Positions 2,481 to 53,686 of a stretch of DNA of 64,000 bases are shown in pieces. This stretch comes from Roseicyclus marinus. Lineage in GTDB: Bacteria; Pseudomonadota; Alphaproteobacteria; Rhodobacterales; Rhodobacteraceae. The notes beneath the pieces were generated by a model. The model was not told the origin of the DNA, did no database searches, and worked only from the letters and a program-made list of their open reading frames with translations. The stretch is from the NCBI RefSeq assembly GCF_036322625.1, contig NZ_AP027266.1, forward strand, positions 65,001-129,000. The letters run 5' to 3'. The position numbers were made by a program, and so were the translations under genes. Position 1 is the stretch's first letter. The number at the start of each line of letters is the position of its first letter.

Positions 2481-2596
2481 TTTGGTGGTCATAGCGTGAG
2501 CAAAACACCCGGCTCCATTCCGAACCCGGCCGTTAAGTGCCACTGCGCCGATGGTACTGCGTCTTAAGGCGTGGGAGAGTAGGTCACCGCCAAACC
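2481..2596 (+). rRNA. 5S ribosomal RNA
   Basis: The sequence opens with TTTGGTGGTCATAGCGTGAG and closes with GGTCACCGCCAAACC. These ends pair (TTTGGTGG with CCGCCAAA), and the core CCCGGCTCCATTCCGAACCC is the conserved 5S loop region. It lies about 80 nt after the 23S end, the normal rrn order. The ends are set from the terminal helix and may be off by one or two bases. Confidence 0.95.
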
Positions 2597-2672
2597 TAGA
2601 AAGAAACACGCGTATCTCTCTACGATGATCTTCCGCTTCGGACTACCTTAATTGGCACGCCCGAGGCATTGG

Positions 2673-2749
<77 letters not shown>

Positions 2750-3223
2750 AAATCACAAACAATATCAAACGCTTAGTTTCCGAGTAAAACACTGGGGGAT
2801 TATCAGCGCGTTTCATGTCAACGCCATGTCAACGTTTGGCGAGTCGCACAGAGGTGGTTCGGCTTGTTTGAACAGGTGTCTGGCGTTTTCTAAGTGGATT
2901 TCCGCCTCGGTTATGCCGCCACCGCTTCGGGCATTGGCTGGTTGAAGTAGGCCTGATCGGGGGTTCTGCCGTCAAGCGATGAATGTGGGCGTCGGCTGTT
3001 GTAGAAGGTCAGATACCGGCCAATCCCGGCCCGGGCCTCGGACACGCTGGCATAGGCCCGCAGGTAGACTTCCTCGTATTTGATGCTCCGCCACAAACGC
3101 TCGACGAAGACGTTATCCCGCCAGGCGCCCTTGCCATCCATGCTGATTTTGATCTCGCGTGCGGCCAGCACCTTGATGAAGTCGGTGGACGTGAACTGGC
3201 TGCCCTGGACGCCCTTCTAAGAG

Positions 3224-4300
3224 TCAAGCGGCGATTTGGGACTGATTGATCTGCTTCTGACGCCGCATGATGATGCCGAAGACTTCTCGGGCGATATAGC
3301 GCTTGAGACTGCGAATGGCTTCCAGCTTCGAGTTTCCGGCAGCGATGCGTTTGGCTACGTAGGCCTGGGTGCGTGGGTCCAGACGCAACCGACCAATCGC
3401 GATAATGTGGATGGCGCTATTGGCCGCGCGATCACCGCCTCGGTTCAACCTGTGCCGGATCGTTTTGCCGGAAGATGCGGGTACCGGACTAACGCCGCAA
3501 AGGGCGGCAAAGCTCGCTTCAGATTTCAAGCGCTCGGGATTGTCGCCAGCCGTCAGCAATAGTTGCGCCGCGCTGTTAAGGCCGATCGCCGTCTGTTCGA
3601 GCAGTTCAGGGGCCAGTTCCTTGACGATGGCTTCGATCATGTCATCCAGATCGGCGATCTCATCATGCAACTCGAGATAACGCCGCGCCAGTGATTTGAG
3701 CGAGATGCGATAGGCTTCCTCGACCTCCCGATATGCAGTGAGATCAGGCCGCCAAGCTGCCAATGTGCGGATCAGCTGCATGCGGGTCATCTGCCGCAAG
3801 GGGTCGCGCAATCTGTCAGGGGCGCAGACGATCGTCGTTTGGATCATCTGCAATGCAATGCGGCGCGCCTGAACGGCTGTCTTGCGACAAACCCTTAGAA
3901 CACGGAGGCTTTCGACCATTCCATCCCGGCTCCTTGGTGTCACGGTGTGCCGTTTGGCAAAGGCGGCATGGGCAGCGCTTTCCGCATCGAAGTGGTCGTT
4001 CTTGCCGCGTCGGCGTCGATCATGCTTGTCAGGGGCAGTGACCTCCAGAACTTCGACACCAGATGCCTGCATGTAACGCAACAATCCTGCGCCATAGCTG
4101 CCCGAGCATTCGATGCCGACGCGCTGCAGATCGCCGAAAGACCGCATCCAGGCGAGCATCAGGCGATACCCATGTCGTGTCGTGGGAAAGCTCTCGACAC
4201 CAAGGACGCGATCCCGTTGATCGACAACGGCCGCCACGTGCAAATCCTTGTGGGTATCGACGCCCCCGACGACGCGAGATGCTTTGGTGTGATCGGCCAT
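3224..4300 (-). CDS. IS110-family DEDD transposase (recombinase)
   Basis: A 358-residue protein. The N-terminal RuvC-like DEDD domain shows the first Asp in GVDTHKD (about residue 15), Glu in GIECSGSYG (about 63) and Asp residues in KNDHFDAESAA (about 102-106). The central part is helical. The C-terminal Tnp_20 domain has LTAGDNPERLKSEASFAALC followed by SPVPASSGK, where the family's catalytic serine lies. Established work shows such recombinases use a structured bridge RNA, encoded in the same element, to choose donor and target DNA. The gene is intact, so the element may still be active. It shares orientation with the IS3 genes it interrupts. Confidence 0.93.
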   Translation of the reverse strand: MADHTKASRVVGGVDTHKDLHVAAVVDQRDRVLGVESFPTTRHGYRLMLAWMRSFGDLQRVGIECSGSYGAGLLRYMQASGVEVLEVTAPDKHDRRRRGKNDHFDAESAAHAAFAKRHTVTPRSRDGMVESLRVLRVCRKTAVQARRIALQMIQTTIVCAPDRLRDPLRQMTRMQLIRTLAAWRPDLTAYREVEEAYRISLKSLARRYLELHDEIADLDDMIEAIVKELAPELLEQTAIGLNSAAQLLLTAGDNPERLKSEASFAALCGVSPVPASSGKTIRHRLNRGGDRAANSAIHIIAIGRLRLDPRTQAYVAKRIAAGNSKLEAIRSLKRYIAREVFGIIMRRQKQINQSQIAA

Positions 4301-4584
4301 GCGATGATCCTTTCCTACGGCACGTGAACGAGCATCGCTCAGAAGAATGCTGGGACAGGACAGTCATGAGACCGGATGGTCAGGCCCTTCTTGGGTCACG
4401 GCGCACCTTTGAGACAAGCTCGCCGCAGGGCGTTCCCGGATGATCGACAGGTCCAGGGAAAGACACGTCGGGTCGATCGGAGTGAGAGTCAGATCACACC
4501 GGAAAGCCATGCGGCACCAACCCAGCGAATGGTCGATCGGTGTTTGAGTCAAACCACCCGAGAACTGGCACCAATCGTATGACT
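4301..4584 (-). ncRNA. candidate bridge RNA region of the IS110 element
   Basis: This 284-bp stretch between the recombinase start and the element end contains no convincing reading frame. It includes a near-perfect inverted repeat at 4539-4558 (GGTGTTTGA-G-TCAAA-CCACC). By analogy with IS621 and relatives it should carry the donor- and target-binding loops of a bridge RNA transcribed on the minus strand. The exact RNA ends and loops cannot be set by eye; the assignment rests on position and family knowledge. Confidence 0.55.
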
Positions 4585-49647: not shown

Positions 49648-50667
49648 ATGACATGGTGGCATCGTGACACCCACGCCGACCGCCGCCCCGCGCTGATGGC
49701 GCGCGGCCGCATCCTCGCCGCGATCCGGCGTTGGTTCGAGGATCAGGGCTTTGTCGAGGTCGACCCCGCCTATCTGGTGGTCTCGCCCGGCAATGAAACG
49801 CATCTGCACGCGTTCGAGACCGTGGCGATGGACGACAGCCTGACGCCGCGCCGCCGCTACCTGCACACCTCGCCCGAATTCGCGATGAAGAAACTGCTCG
49901 CGGCGGGGGAGGAAAAGATTTTCACCCTGTCGCGCGTCTGGCGCAACCGGGAGGGCGGGCCGCGCCATGCGGTCGAGTTCACGATGCTCGAGTGGTATCG
50001 CGCGGGCGAAGGCTACGAGGTGCTGATGGAGGATTGCGCGGCGCTGATGCGGGTGGCGGCGGAGGCCTCGGGCGTGACAGAGCTGCGCCACCGGGATGTC
50101 GTCTGCGATCCCTTTGCCGGTCCGCGCCGCACCACGCTGCAGGCCGAGGCGATGCGCCATGGTGTCGATCTTCTGGCCACGCTGGACGGGCCCGTGCCCG
50201 ATGCCGCGGCCCTTGCCGCCCAACTGGCCGCCATCGGCATCGCACCGGGCGCGGGCGACAGCTGGTCGGACCTGTTCTCGCGGCTTTTGACGGCGCGGAT
50301 CGAGCCGGAGCTGGGTTCCGGCCCCGTGATCCTTGACGCCTATCCCGCGCCCGAGGCGGCGCTGGCGCGGCGGTCGGCGCAGGACCCGCGCACGGCGGAG
50401 CGGTTCGAGCTGTTCGCCTGCGGGGTGGAGCTGGCCAATGCCTTCGGGGAGCTGACGGACCCGGCGGAGCAGCGGGCGCGGTTCGAGGCGGACATGGACC
50501 TGAAGGAGGCGATCTACGGCACCCGCTACCCGCTGGACGAGGAGCTGTTGGCGGCGCTGGCCCGGATGCCGCCTGCGGCGGGCTGTGCGCTGGGGTTCGA
50601 CCGGTTGGTGATGCTCGCCACCCATGCGCCGCGGCTGTCGGACGTCCAGTGGACCCCGCCCGCCTGA
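49648..50667 (+). CDS. epmA: EF-P--lysine lysyltransferase EpmA (GenX/PoxA)
   Basis: A 339-residue paralogue of the class II lysyl-tRNA synthetase catalytic core without the tRNA anticodon domain. Motif 2 is FTLSRVWRNREGGPRHAVEFTMLEWYRA and motif 3 is GCALGFDRLVMLA; VELANAFGELTDPAEQRARF is also typical. It attaches (R)-beta-lysine to EF-P Lys33 when EpmB supplies it. No epmB-like radical SAM gene is seen in this window. Confidence 0.94.
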   Translation: MTWWHRDTHADRRPALMARGRILAAIRRWFEDQGFVEVDPAYLVVSPGNETHLHAFETVAMDDSLTPRRRYLHTSPEFAMKKLLAAGEEKIFTLSRVWRNREGGPRHAVEFTMLEWYRAGEGYEVLMEDCAALMRVAAEASGVTELRHRDVVCDPFAGPRRTTLQAEAMRHGVDLLATLDGPVPDAAALAAQLAAIGIAPGAGDSWSDLFSRLLTARIEPELGSGPVILDAYPAPEAALARRSAQDPRTAERFELFACGVELANAFGELTDPAEQRARFEADMDLKEAIYGTRYPLDEELLAALARMPPAAGCALGFDRLVMLATHAPRLSDVQWTPPA

Positions 50668-50985
50668 CCGGGCGCGGGTCGGGACGCGGCCCGTGTGCAA
50701 GCTTGCACGGAGGGGTCAAGGGGTTGGAATCGTTGGAGAAAGGGGATTTTGTTAGGGTTTTGGTAAGGGGGTGATGGGGGCTTGGAGCGGGTTCGTTGTG
50801 GGGGATCGGGGAGTTGGGTGTGGGTTGAGTGTTGGGGACCGGCCCTTGGCGAACTGTCAACCTCGGCAGAACACTTCGGATGCTGCGCACGCAAGGCAGA
50901 CCTTCAAACTTGACCCAGGTAGATCTAACGGTGATCATTGCGCCGGAAGAGCGTAACGATTTGTGCAACATTTTAGGAAATATTC
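50668..50985. other. 318-bp region upstream of the reverse transcriptase, no gene; palindrome and G/T-rich tract
   Basis: No credible reading frame. It contains a perfect 14-bp palindrome, GTGCAAGCTTGCAC (50695-50708), then about 140 bp (50709-50850) in which the plus strand is G- and T-rich with very few C and many GGG runs. After this the sequence turns AT-richer before the reverse-transcriptase start. It may hold the promoter and possibly a non-coding RNA partner. Confidence 0.6.
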
Positions 50986-52623
50986 ATGCCTGTTCGACTG
51001 GGTGAGGGATTTGGACTTGAGCCCGAAAAGGTTAATGGTTCAGATTGGGCCCTCTCCGTTGCTAGGATTTCTGCGGATAGTAATTCGGATTTTATTTTTG
51101 CCCCACATCTTCGGCTAATTTATCGATATGCTGCAGACGAATTGATCGAATCTTTAAAGTCGAAGTTAAGGGCCGGAAATTACGTTCTTGGCACGCCGAT
51201 GACGATTGAAGTCCCGAAGGCTTCAAGGATAAGCGTCAGGTCAAATCCGCCTAGACCTGGGCCAAATTACACTCGGCCAGGAAGCATACTTTTTCCTGAA
51301 GATAGGCTGTTCTATCAATTTTGTGCAGATTATGCGCTTACAGTGGTGGAAGGCAAAACCGACAGGGCTAGGTCATTTAGCCACCAAATAGACTATGAAA
51401 ACCCGGAAAGCCTATTCAAATCCACACGTGCATGCTGGGCCGATTTTCAGCGGGCCATTAAGGAATATTCTGATCCGGATGAAATTAAGTATGTTATGAA
51501 AATTGATATTGCTAACTTTTTTGGTAGTATAAATCAGCATGTGCTAGTCAACAACCTGCTAGATCATGGGCTCTCAAGGGATGTGGTGGAGCGCTTAGAG
51601 GTCACACTCACCAGCTTCACAAACTCGAGATCGTCTCGAGGAATTATTCAGGGAATTTTTCCGAGCGATTTAATTGGAAATTTCTACCTCGAGCCTTTTG
51701 ATCGCTTTATGAGCGACATCGGAATTCAGTCTGCAAGATATGTAGACGACATTTATATTTTCTTTGAAAGCGTAAATCAGGCAGAGGAAACTCTTAAGAA
51801 GATTATTCCAAAGTTACGTGAGCTTGACCTGTCGCTTAATGAGGCGAAGTCAAAAATACTTCCCAAGAATGTACTCACCGCAGAAGAGCCTGACCTTCAA
51901 GAGCTATTTGATTTAGCTATTGCAGAAATAAGAGAGCAGCTTGACGAAAACGATTTTTCAACTGCCTATGGGTTTCAGGAGGAGTGGGATTGGGAGGATG
52001 AAGGAGATGATGATGATGCAAAAATTCACCTTGAAGCAACGAAATCTTTGTTTGATTCTGTAAATCTTTACAGCGGATACGAAGAGGAGGTCGAGAGATT
52101 TTGCATACCCTTATTCATTAAAGCTAAATCTGATTACGCCATTGAGCATGTGATTTCATCTTTTGACAAAAGGCCATCCATGGCTCAGATTTACTGCTCA
52201 TATCTAGGAAAATTCACTGACAGGGACGAGGTGCTGGCATTTCTTAGATCTAAAGTTGAAGATGCACGCCTCCATGATTGGCAGCTGATGTGGGTAATCG
52301 GAGCTTTCCTTCAAGGGCGACATCATGTAGATGCTGATATTGTTCCAGTACTGCGAGTATTTAATGACAGAGACCGACATGATGCCGTGCGCGCCATCGC
52401 AGCGATTTTTGTTGGACTGCATGGTGACGCGATCCGCAGAAGATCCCTCTTTGACAATTGTGCAGACTGCACAATTTACGTGCAAGCCGCAATTTTTTAC
52501 ATCTCCCTAAGAAAATCCGATGCTACTTCAAATAACCATCGAACGCAGTGGGTCAACAGAAGTACTTTCAATACTTTGATTAGCAAAGCTTGGAGCAATA
52601 TGAAGGCTAAGAGGCCCGCCTAG
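50986..52623 (+). CDS. UG/Abi-type (defence-associated) reverse transcriptase, subtype unassigned
   Basis: A 545-residue stand-alone reverse transcriptase. Palm motif A is MKIDIANFFGSI (Asp174), motif B GIIQGIFPSDLIGNFYL (219-235) and motif C RYVDDIYIFF (Asp254, Asp255). The N-terminal fingers include RPGSILFPEDRLFYQFCADY (97-116). An acidic loop (about 331-345, EEWDWEDEGDDDDA) precedes a helical, repeat-like C-terminal domain (about 360-545), as in Abi/UG enzymes. No group II maturase, CRISPR (Cas1) or retron VTG motif is seen. Codon use and composition are clearly AT-richer than the neighbours, indicating transfer. AGGAA lies before the ATG. A defence role is inferred from family knowledge. 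Confidence 0.82.
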   Translation: MPVRLGEGFGLEPEKVNGSDWALSVARISADSNSDFIFAPHLRLIYRYAADELIESLKSKLRAGNYVLGTPMTIEVPKASRISVRSNPPRPGPNYTRPGSILFPEDRLFYQFCADYALTVVEGKTDRARSFSHQIDYENPESLFKSTRACWADFQRAIKEYSDPDEIKYVMKIDIANFFGSINQHVLVNNLLDHGLSRDVVERLEVTLTSFTNSRSSRGIIQGIFPSDLIGNFYLEPFDRFMSDIGIQSARYVDDIYIFFESVNQAEETLKKIIPKLRELDLSLNEAKSKILPKNVLTAEEPDLQELFDLAIAEIREQLDENDFSTAYGFQEEWDWEDEGDDDDAKIHLEATKSLFDSVNLYSGYEEEVERFCIPLFIKAKSDYAIEHVISSFDKRPSMAQIYCSYLGKFTDRDEVLAFLRSKVEDARLHDWQLMWVIGAFLQGRHHVDADIVPVLRVFNDRDRHDAVRAIAAIFVGLHGDAIRRRSLFDNCADCTIYVQAAIFYISLRKSDATSNNHRTQWVNRSTFNTLISKAWSNMKAKRPA

Positions 52624-52786
52624 TTGTGCGAATTGCCCATCATGGGAAATTCAAAAAACTGTAGGTCGAGCCTCGGCCACATGGCCTGATTGTTGCAAGG
52701 CAGGCGAGCGGCAGTTCTACCTCGTGTGACACACCGCCGGCAAAAGGCTTTCATCTCTCGGGATAGATCCGGCTGCAATTTCGCGA
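52624..52786. other. 163-bp region between reverse transcriptase and ParB-like gene
   Basis: No gene. A short hairpin around GGCCACATGGCC (52672-52684) and a GC shift back to host composition at about 52690 are visible. The right boundary of the transferred segment probably lies here. Confidence 0.4.
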
Positions 52787-53686
52787 CTATCCACCGGGAC
52801 GTCTGCTTCCGCAACGGTTCTTTAAATGCCATACCGCGCTGCCGTCAGGCAGTTCGCCCCCCTCACCTCCCCCCAACCAAGCCTCCACGTAATCCATCAC
52901 ATCCTCCATCAGGGGGCCGCTGGCGTCCCGTCCGGTGAAGCGCAGGAGCCAGCCGTCCTTGTGCCGCTCGCGCCTTATGGTGAGGGACATCGCGGTGCGG
53001 AGGTAGTGCCTCGGGCGGTCCTTGCGGTAGGGGGGCGGGGGGTGGCGGGCCTCCTCCTCCATCTCGTCGAGGATGGCGGAGAGCAGGCTCCATTGCGTCG
53101 CGGGGGAGCGGTCGGAGGATTCGGCCAGCGCCACGTCCATCACCGGGCCCAGACCGGCGCGCAGCCCCGCGGCAAGGCGGGTGAGTTTTTGCTGCGAGAG
53201 CGACAGCGGCTCGGTCAGGGTGGGGCCGAAATGCTGGACAACCTCGACCACGGCGCGCAGGCGGGCGCGGCGGAAGCGGTCGTAGGTGGGGTAGAGCGCC
53301 GGGAGCGCGTCGTCGAGCGTGGCGAAATGGCCGTGCTCGAGGGCGGTGAGCAGGATGCTGGCCCGTTCCCAGGGCGTGATCTCGGCGCGGATCTCGTTTT
53401 CCTCGATCATGGCGGCCAGCGCCGCGGGGATGTCGGCGGGCTGGCGGATGAAGGCGGGAATGGTGGGCTGGTTCAGCTCGCGGTGCGCGATCAGCCGCCG
53501 GTAGCCGGAGATGAGGCCATAGGGGAGGGGGCCGGTGGCGGGGAAGACCTCGATCGGCATGCGCAGCCCGTGGGCGGCGATGGAGAGGGTGAGGTCGGAG
53601 AGCGCGATGGGGTCGAGGTCGAGCCGGTCGCGGGGGAGGGCGGCGGCGTCGATCTGGTCGAGGGGGATGTGTTGGATGGGGTCCAT
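52787..53686 (-). CDS. ParB/Srx-fold domain protein
   Basis: A 299-residue protein. The N-terminal ParB-like nuclease/CTPase fold shows IPLDQIDAAALPRDRL, LTLSIAAHGLRMPIEV, the ISGYRRLIAHREL box and the following AAMIEENEIRAEITPWERA. A helical DNA-binding-like middle follows. It is not accompanied by parA and no parS was recognised, so a role in chromosome segregation is doubtful; a regulatory role is possible. It converges with the reverse transcriptase gene. Confidence 0.75.
   Translation of the reverse strand: MDPIQHIPLDQIDAAALPRDRLDLDPIALSDLTLSIAAHGLRMPIEVFPATGPLPYGLISGYRRLIAHRELNQPTIPAFIRQPADIPAALAAMIEENEIRAEITPWERASILLTALEHGHFATLDDALPALYPTYDRFRRARLRAVVEVVQHFGPTLTEPLSLSQQKLTRLAAGLRAGLGPVMDVALAESSDRSPATQWSLLSAILDEMEEEARHPPPPYRKDRPRHYLRTAMSLTIRRERHKDGWLLRFTGRDASGPLMEDVMDYVEAWLGGGEGGELPDGSAVWHLKNRCGSRRPGG

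Follow-up and report, generated by a model that had tools for sequence, protein, structure and literature searches.

Characterised defence reverse transcriptases (RTs) make genes, homopolymers, random strands or protein-templated repeats (PMC13213688). DRT4/UG15 and DRT6 are called single-gene systems in the same paper, DRT5 reportedly needs no template for the protein-linked DNA that it makes (PMC13275509), and in AbiK and Abi-P2 a helical domain replaces the thumb and stands in for the template strand, AbiK priming from Tyr44 (PMC9508834). Here we analyse an RT gene of Roseicyclus marinus that lies in a stretch of 64,000 nucleotides of contig NZ_AP027266.1 (positions 65,001 to 129,000, hereafter the window). 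The gene is an intact, horizontally acquired member of UG20, an already catalogued, little-studied group to which it adds a member. The best overall explanation, to which we assign a probability of about 0.55, is that it is a single-gene UG20 defence module whose product would make DNA without a template. That the UG20 RT is a phage-defence gene is itself probable; given defence, template-free synthesis, argued by analogy with the described systems, is favoured with less assurance.

The window gene belongs to UG20

The following features of the gene were located in the window:

50986..52623, + strand: UG20 reverse transcriptase of 545 residues (open reading frame with ATG start; PADLOC RT_UG20, Pfam RVT_1)
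50975..50979, + strand: Shine-Dalgarno-like AGGAA ahead of the ATG, read from the sequence
51505..51507, + strand: codon of the catalytic Asp174 (motif A), invariant in alignments A1 and A2
51739..51750, + strand: codons of YVDD 252-255 (motif C), invariant in alignments A1 and A2

A sequence-only reading had assigned the span 50668-52786 to a stand-alone UG/Abi-type RT of foreign composition with complete polymerase motifs, a helical C-terminal domain and no maturase, Cas1 or retron features. The span proved to be the intergenic interval, with the open reading frame (ORF) at 50986-52623; the remainder of that description agrees with the results below.

By its sequence, the window protein is a member of UG20. 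The PADLOC profile RT_UG20 (PDLC03758) matches it with 657.7 bits (E 3.7e-198), residues 9-535 lying on profile positions 2-510 of 511, and the next groups are UG21 (198.3 bits), UG22 (154.8), UG19 (140.2), Drt8 (131.3), UG23 (127.6), UG32 (127.1) and Drt5 (95.0). We take UG16 to be DRT5 and UG7 to be DRT8. Since the UG20 profile is matched over its full length, the protein can be placed in a catalogued group, one whose name is present in a profile library of 2023. The earlier statement that it could not be placed in a named DRT type has therefore to be withdrawn, and the hope that a search against UG/Abi and DRT profiles would uncover a new subtype ended in UG20. Within the literature searched, which lacked the 2022 UG/Abi classification, we met no class assignment of UG20, and no paper on UG20 RTs or defence experiment on them was found.

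In the Pfam scan RVT_1 (59.7 bits) is the sole domain above cut-off; maturase and Cas1 domains are absent from it, as is a fused nitrilase or phosphohydrolase domain, the class 3 feature. The top NCBIfam match is Drt5 with 90.5 bits (cut-off 550), and group II maturase (73.0, cut-off 300) and retron St85 (46.6, cut-off 235) stay below their cut-offs as well.

The foreign composition of the gene is evident. The GC content of the RT ORF is 43.7%, compared with 71.0% in epmA and 69.9% in the ParB-like gene on its two sides and 64.7% in the window, and at third codon positions it is 41.4%, where four neighbouring genes reach 83.5-89.3%. Among 312 sliding windows of equal length, the RT ORF stretch has the lowest GC content.

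UG20 relatives are rare and form one clade

Alignment A1, which comprises 6 rows, was used as query against the genomes of 84,980 species and returned 35 loci. Of these, 25 (L022-L046) match the window protein well enough to be counted as UG20: 19 are intact, L029 ends early, the frames of L031, L045 and L046 are disrupted, and L043 and L044 are cut by contig ends. The other ten loci (L047-L056) have 23-32% identity over a smaller part of the protein, and the five that were scanned gave Drt3a, Drt3b or UG17. Three further loci come from plasmid records, namely L018 (Sinorhizobium medicae), L019 (Candidatus Manganitrophus) and L020 (Rhizobium acidisoli), the last a copy with a broken frame that is 34.9% identical.

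Asp174 and Y252-V253-D254-D255 are unchanged across all rows of A1 and of the 21-row alignment A2. The intact relatives resemble the window protein in length, motifs and C-terminal domain, yet in A2 its identity to the 19 of them is 34-51% (53% to the truncated L029), so that it is a diverged member of its group.

UG20 is rare and patchy. Profile sampling gave matches in 3 of 390 genomes of the order, 2 of 385 of the class and 2 of 398 of the phylum, and each time in none of 14 control genomes; the three samples partly overlap and each counts the genome of the window itself. With the window protein as single query, no relative was found in genome contigs or viral contigs. Searching viral contigs with A1 yielded 22 loci that match the RT core (best-segment identity 22-38%), and phage records held four matches spanning 22-25% of the protein; a full-length UG20 RT was not seen in either by the single-sequence and A1 scans.

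A first tree of 38 RT-core rows came with a long-branch warning from the program. In it two Drt3b rows (branch 4.69) fall inside UG20, and the UG20 label needs two changes. Because of the long branches, four rows (the two Drt3b, L014 and L008) were dropped. In the pruned tree the 21 UG20 rows form one clade with support of 83/80, which is not starred, and this clade is present in 89% of 200 bootstrap trees. The window protein is a branch of its own, basal to one of the two UG20 sub-clades (96/97), and lies outside the clade that holds the RT-Cas1 row (98/98). A position among group II introns or retrons, which would have spoken against a UG/Abi assignment, was not seen in the pruned tree, in which no row is labelled retron.

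The predicted fold resembles single-gene and Abi reverse transcriptases

The AlphaFold2 model of the window protein has a mean predicted local distance difference test (pLDDT) score of 82.2 and a predicted template modelling (TM) score, pTM, of 0.85. It shows the C-terminal domain as follows:

52081..52611, + strand: C-terminal alpha-solenoid (HEAT-like) domain, residues 366-542 (AlphaFold2 model, Foldseek)

The helical C-terminal domain of HEAT-like (alphaRep) type, a class 1 feature, is thus predicted for the window protein. In a Foldseek search with the model, DRT6 (9wy8) came first by E-value with TM scores of 0.61/0.66. DRT4 (9vdv and 9vdo) reached 0.61/0.66 and 0.57/0.63, UG15 (9l9s) 0.58/0.59 and AbiK (7r06) 0.45/0.42, and the matches to DRT6, DRT4 and AbiK span the whole protein. 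By query length, AbiA scored 0.40-0.49 and Abi-P2 0.39-0.42. The ncRNA-dependent DRT9 (9vma; ncRNA, non-coding RNA) gave 0.37/0.40 and DRT2 0.34/0.42. For L035, a member of the other UG20 sub-clade (pLDDT 82.4, pTM 0.79), the first twelve rows are taken by AbiK, DRT6, DRT4, AbiA and UG15, and DRT9 appears from rank 32 on.

DRT4/UG15 and DRT6 are therefore the best fold matches to the window model, sharing with it an RT lobe joined to an alpha-solenoid, but their identity to the window protein is 11-14% and they are not its nearest groups by profile. AbiK, AbiA and Abi-P2 have a fold of the same plan, although UG20 differs from AbiK in having no invariant tyrosine in the first 250 residues. DRT5 is homologous over the palm and the C-terminal helical domain (hhalign probability 98.3, query columns 141-533) and of similar length, two Drt5 proteins having 495 and 491 residues; yet the identity over aligned columns is 22% and the NCBIfam Drt5 score falls far below its cut-off, as given above.

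From these resemblances we infer that the enzyme would work as AbiK, DRT4 and DRT6 do. It would consist of two lobes, a palm/fingers domain and the C-terminal alpha-solenoid, which would take the place of both thumb and template and hold the growing single strand. Probably acting as an oligomer, the protein would prime itself from a hydroxyl residue and add deoxynucleoside triphosphates with no template. The resulting DNA, or DNA-protein adduct, might then block phage replication or kill the infected cell.

Several points weigh against this model. The nearest groups by sequence are UG21, UG22, UG19, Drt8, UG23, UG32 and Drt5, and not Drt4, Drt6 or AbiK. The paper that reports template-free synthesis by DRT5 calls DRT5 a class 3 system (PMC13275509). 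For DRT6, DRT4/UG15 and AbiK, the matches to the predicted model are at 11-17% identity, with TM scores of 0.40-0.66 and root-mean-square deviations of 6.6-11.8 Å; with deviations this large, the fit is one of architecture and not of detail. For some class 1 structures the window model sets DRT9 apart only weakly: DRT9 (9vma) ranks sixth by E-value, and AbiA (8oz7_A, 0.41/0.38) and Abi-P2 (7r08_A, 0.39/0.43) score little better. Finally, no structure of DRT5 or DRT8 is among the best 50 rows of either search.

A candidate priming residue

Over the 20 intact rows, eight tyrosine, serine or threonine residues are invariant: S100, S132, S227, Y252, Y257, Y328, Y403 and Y406. Y252 is part of the catalytic YVDD and Y257 comes after it, and Y403 and Y406 are placed by the model in the solenoid, where they may line the channel. 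Y328 opens a conserved motif:

51967..51987, + strand: YGF(Q/E)xxW motif (Y328, G329, F330, W334) heading a mobile acidic loop, a speculative priming region (invariance, low pLDDT)

This tyrosine heads a stretch holding 8-24 acidic residues in 45, and in the window model it lies inside the segment 325-333 with pLDDT below 50. In the L035 model pLDDT is below 50 at 301-307, and the YGF of L035 is at 303-305. The priming serine of DRT1 likewise sits in a segment that is unresolved in its structure (PMC13275509). Given its invariance, its position in a low-confidence loop and the parallel with DRT1, we tentatively propose Tyr328, located in the mobile acidic loop that separates palm from solenoid, as the primer, a speculation that we hold to be rather doubtful. 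Whereas AbiK primes from Tyr44 and DRT10 from its C-terminal residue, the UG20 candidate would be carried by this acidic loop. On the opposing side, the Drt5 row of a profile alignment has no tyrosine aligned to Y328. A stretch of tyrosine plus acidic residues in two Drt5 proteins was considered as a shared primer and rejected, as it is not aligned with YGF in that alignment.

A bolder version, which we consider unlikely, would make UG20 a separate RNA-free single-gene DNA maker that is primed from Y328 and whose acidic loop acts as a DNA mimic, closing the product channel until infection. A one-gene UG20 member with a candidate primer offers an easy test case.

Flanking DNA gives little support for a family-wide RNA

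The principal alternative is that UG20 is templated by an ncRNA, as are the class 2 systems DRT2, DRT9 and DRT10, with a short RNA encoded in the approximately 100-145 nt upstream or overlapping the coding sequence (CDS). Class 2 DRT systems have cis-encoded ncRNAs (PMC13174585). The structures of DRT2 and DRT9 match the window model less well than those of DRT4 and DRT6, DRT9 ranks far behind these two for L035, and no Rfam match was found near the gene at the gathering threshold.

When 800 nt upstream and 600 nt downstream of UG20 genes were compared by blastn, upstream similarity was found mainly among near relatives. It amounts to 90% over 145 nt for L024/L029, 82% over 121 nt for L024/L026 and 74% over 142 nt for L035/L036, with the gene's first 30 nt counted in each case, and this retention of upstream DNA speaks for the alternative. 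For L031/L046 and L018/L023 the matches are 32-44 nt long, of which 30 nt are coding. Downstream, nearly all matches are the gene's own last 60 nt; the exceptions are the near-identical loci L041/L042, L024/L026 (about 35 nt past the stop) and L039 with L041/L042 (31 nt). A multiple alignment of the upstream regions showed nothing clear outside the start-codon area.

A first comparison of flanks employed 12 hand-picked pairs with three shuffles each. Of six pairs at 69-81% CDS identity, five have 33.6-41.7% identity in the first 100 nt; these values are inside the pooled control range of 14.3-45.3%, yet three of the five exceed their own three controls. The test was repeated for every pair among 22 intact genes, using a larger number of shuffles and a DRT3 control run by the same method, and z of at least 4 was counted as a signal. 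At 68-83% CDS identity, a signal over the 100 nt directly upstream is seen in only one of 13 pairs (L018/L023, 81.4%, z 5.7), and the three other flanking windows, the downstream ones included, give no signal in any of these pairs.

The DRT3 ncRNA is placed downstream of DRT3b (PMC13174585). In the control, which consists of five Drt3b loci, the first 100 nt downstream are kept in all ten pairs; at 80-81% identity four of four pairs keep this block (z 4.9-7.9), and blastn locates the conserved block about 40-140 nt past the stop. It has to be set against the template-free model that the control pairs, at 80-92% CDS identity, are closer to each other than UG20 pairs mostly are, that in all three UG20 pairs exceeding 83% the 100 nt directly upstream are kept (z 10.8-24.6), and that the two UG20 pairs near 80% are split, L034/L037 being at background (z 0.8) and L018/L023 at z 5.7. 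The three pairs above 83% and L018/L023 count in favour of the ncRNA alternative.

Judged by the flank test, UG20 probably has no family-wide ncRNA of the DRT3 kind, though it may have a short leader RNA. The test thus lowers the odds of template-free synthesis and raises those of an RNA template, which we nevertheless regard as rather improbable. The earlier remark that some RTs of this kind need a nearby RNA finds little support for UG20, 12 of the 13 pairs at 68-83% identity being without an upstream signal.

The gene occupies a site of cargo exchange

The immediate surroundings of the RT gene comprise:

49648..50667, + strand: epmA (EF-P lysine ligase-like), flanking gene (Pfam tRNA-synt_2), adjoins efp
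52787..53686, - strand: ParB_N-domain gene, flanking gene (Pfam ParB_N 33.6 bits), host-like composition
50781..52857, no strand: foreign cargo stretch, 46.1% GC, delimited by blastn against L090

The name epmA was given because a class II tRNA-synthetase-like gene here adjoins efp, and the position between epmA and a ParB-like gene is as first described. A match to epmA was found in 11 of 13 genomes of the genus, the window's own included; the closest relative found is G422, whose epmA is 95% identical. When the window was compared with the G422 locus (L090) by blastn, the flanks aligned up to position 50780 at 91.5% and again from 52858 at 92.3%. Between them, at the same site, L090 holds a different AT-rich cargo (2543-4566, - strand, 47.6% GC) that encodes an Mrr-type endonuclease (Mrr_cat, Pfam 33.9 bits) and a ParB-domain protein (PADLOC PDC-M38A 155.2 bits; Pfam ParB_N 16.4, below cut-off). 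The two genes are a candidate two-gene defence pair. As different cargo lies between the same flanks, the RT and the Mrr/ParB pair appear to be alternatives at one site. Hence the locus is core in its conserved flanking genes, as had been claimed, but not in the variable cargo between them.

The ParB-like gene next to the RT was considered as its partner and rejected, since it is kept beside different cargo in L090. At 52787-52857 the last approximately 25 residues of the ParB-like protein differ from the L090 counterpart (299 versus 274 residues), which is explained by the 3' end of the gene running into the cargo junction. A tract that is strongly G-rich and GT-rich lies after epmA at 50700-50850, and its portion up to 50780 is common to L090. 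A search for mobile-element ends at 50600-53000 (minimum 14 nt) gave no inverted repeat and two short direct repeats. Insertion through recombination between similar flanks is possible.

In six genus mates (L091-L096) epmA is followed by a gene that, from the look of its sequence, we take to be pncB-like (in L095 after a gap of 1.9 kb). Downstream of it are AT-rich genes (43-49% GC) that differ among the mates: a DitA match of 228 bits in L096, a ClpP-like SDH protease in L094, a PNP-superfamily protein with effector-type matches of 37-38 bits in L091, weak HEPN-type matches in L093 and L095, and no match in L092. The contigs of two further mates (L097, L098) end too early for this site to be read. 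In the window's own genome (L100) the pncB-like gene is elsewhere, beside a 349-residue ORF of 47.1% GC, and in L041 and L042 the UG20 gene itself adjoins the pncB-like gene.

We read the UG20 gene as swappable cargo, lodged where such modules are exchanged. The swapped cargo at epmA, together with a pncB site that occurs in more than one genus, points to chromosomal sites at which defence genes may be sought. If UG20 also moved among Rhodobacterales as single-gene cargo by way of the epmA and pncB hotspots, this would, jointly with the Y328 primer and acidic loop, make an improbable combination.

The hotspot position might also be incidental, the gene being inert, a selfish passenger or of non-defence function. 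Its rarity in the order, class and phylum samples, the broken copies L031, L045 and L046 together with the early end of L029, and the failure of the literature search to turn up a defence experiment are all compatible with this. Against it, no catalytic residue differs between the window protein and its 19 intact relatives (34-51% identity), which points to selection on activity; a patchy distribution with losses is what defence genes typically show; and relatives carry defence-like genes at the epmA site and the pncB site. We consider this explanation quite unlikely.

Neighbouring genes

Neighbour genes were taken from a simple ORF picker that errs in its choice of frame where DNA is GC-rich (efp, for instance, was missed in the window), so that a partner gene may have escaped it. 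Up to five genes away from the RT, it revealed no neighbour family common to three or more of 27 loci, in agreement with the description of a stand-alone gene. There are 15 neighbour groups shared by two loci, 11 of which come from three pairs of near relatives. A retron-like arrangement, in which the RT is half of a system and its DNA would restrain or activate an effector encoded at another place, is very unlikely. It is favoured by the case of DRT1, a system also able to act as a single gene, whose DNA controls the effector domain of the same protein (PMC13275509), but the UG20 protein has no such domain, RVT_1 alone being above cut-off, and the 27 loci show no recurrent neighbour.

Neighbour ORFs no more than three genes away and 90 residues or longer number 124 when the window is left out, and 75 of them were scanned. 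The 25 families listed of the 135 matched include LmuA, type II/III methyltransferases, mads proteins, PD-T4-6 and IetA, and each of the 25 was matched by one member. Some UG20 genes are thus close to other defence-like genes, and no fixed partner was seen. On the Rhizobium acidisoli plasmid pRapFH23c (L020, 2068-9501), the broken UG20-like gene lies beside genes with SIR2, ATP-binding, macro-domain and DarT-family annotations, a neighbourhood that looks like a defence island.

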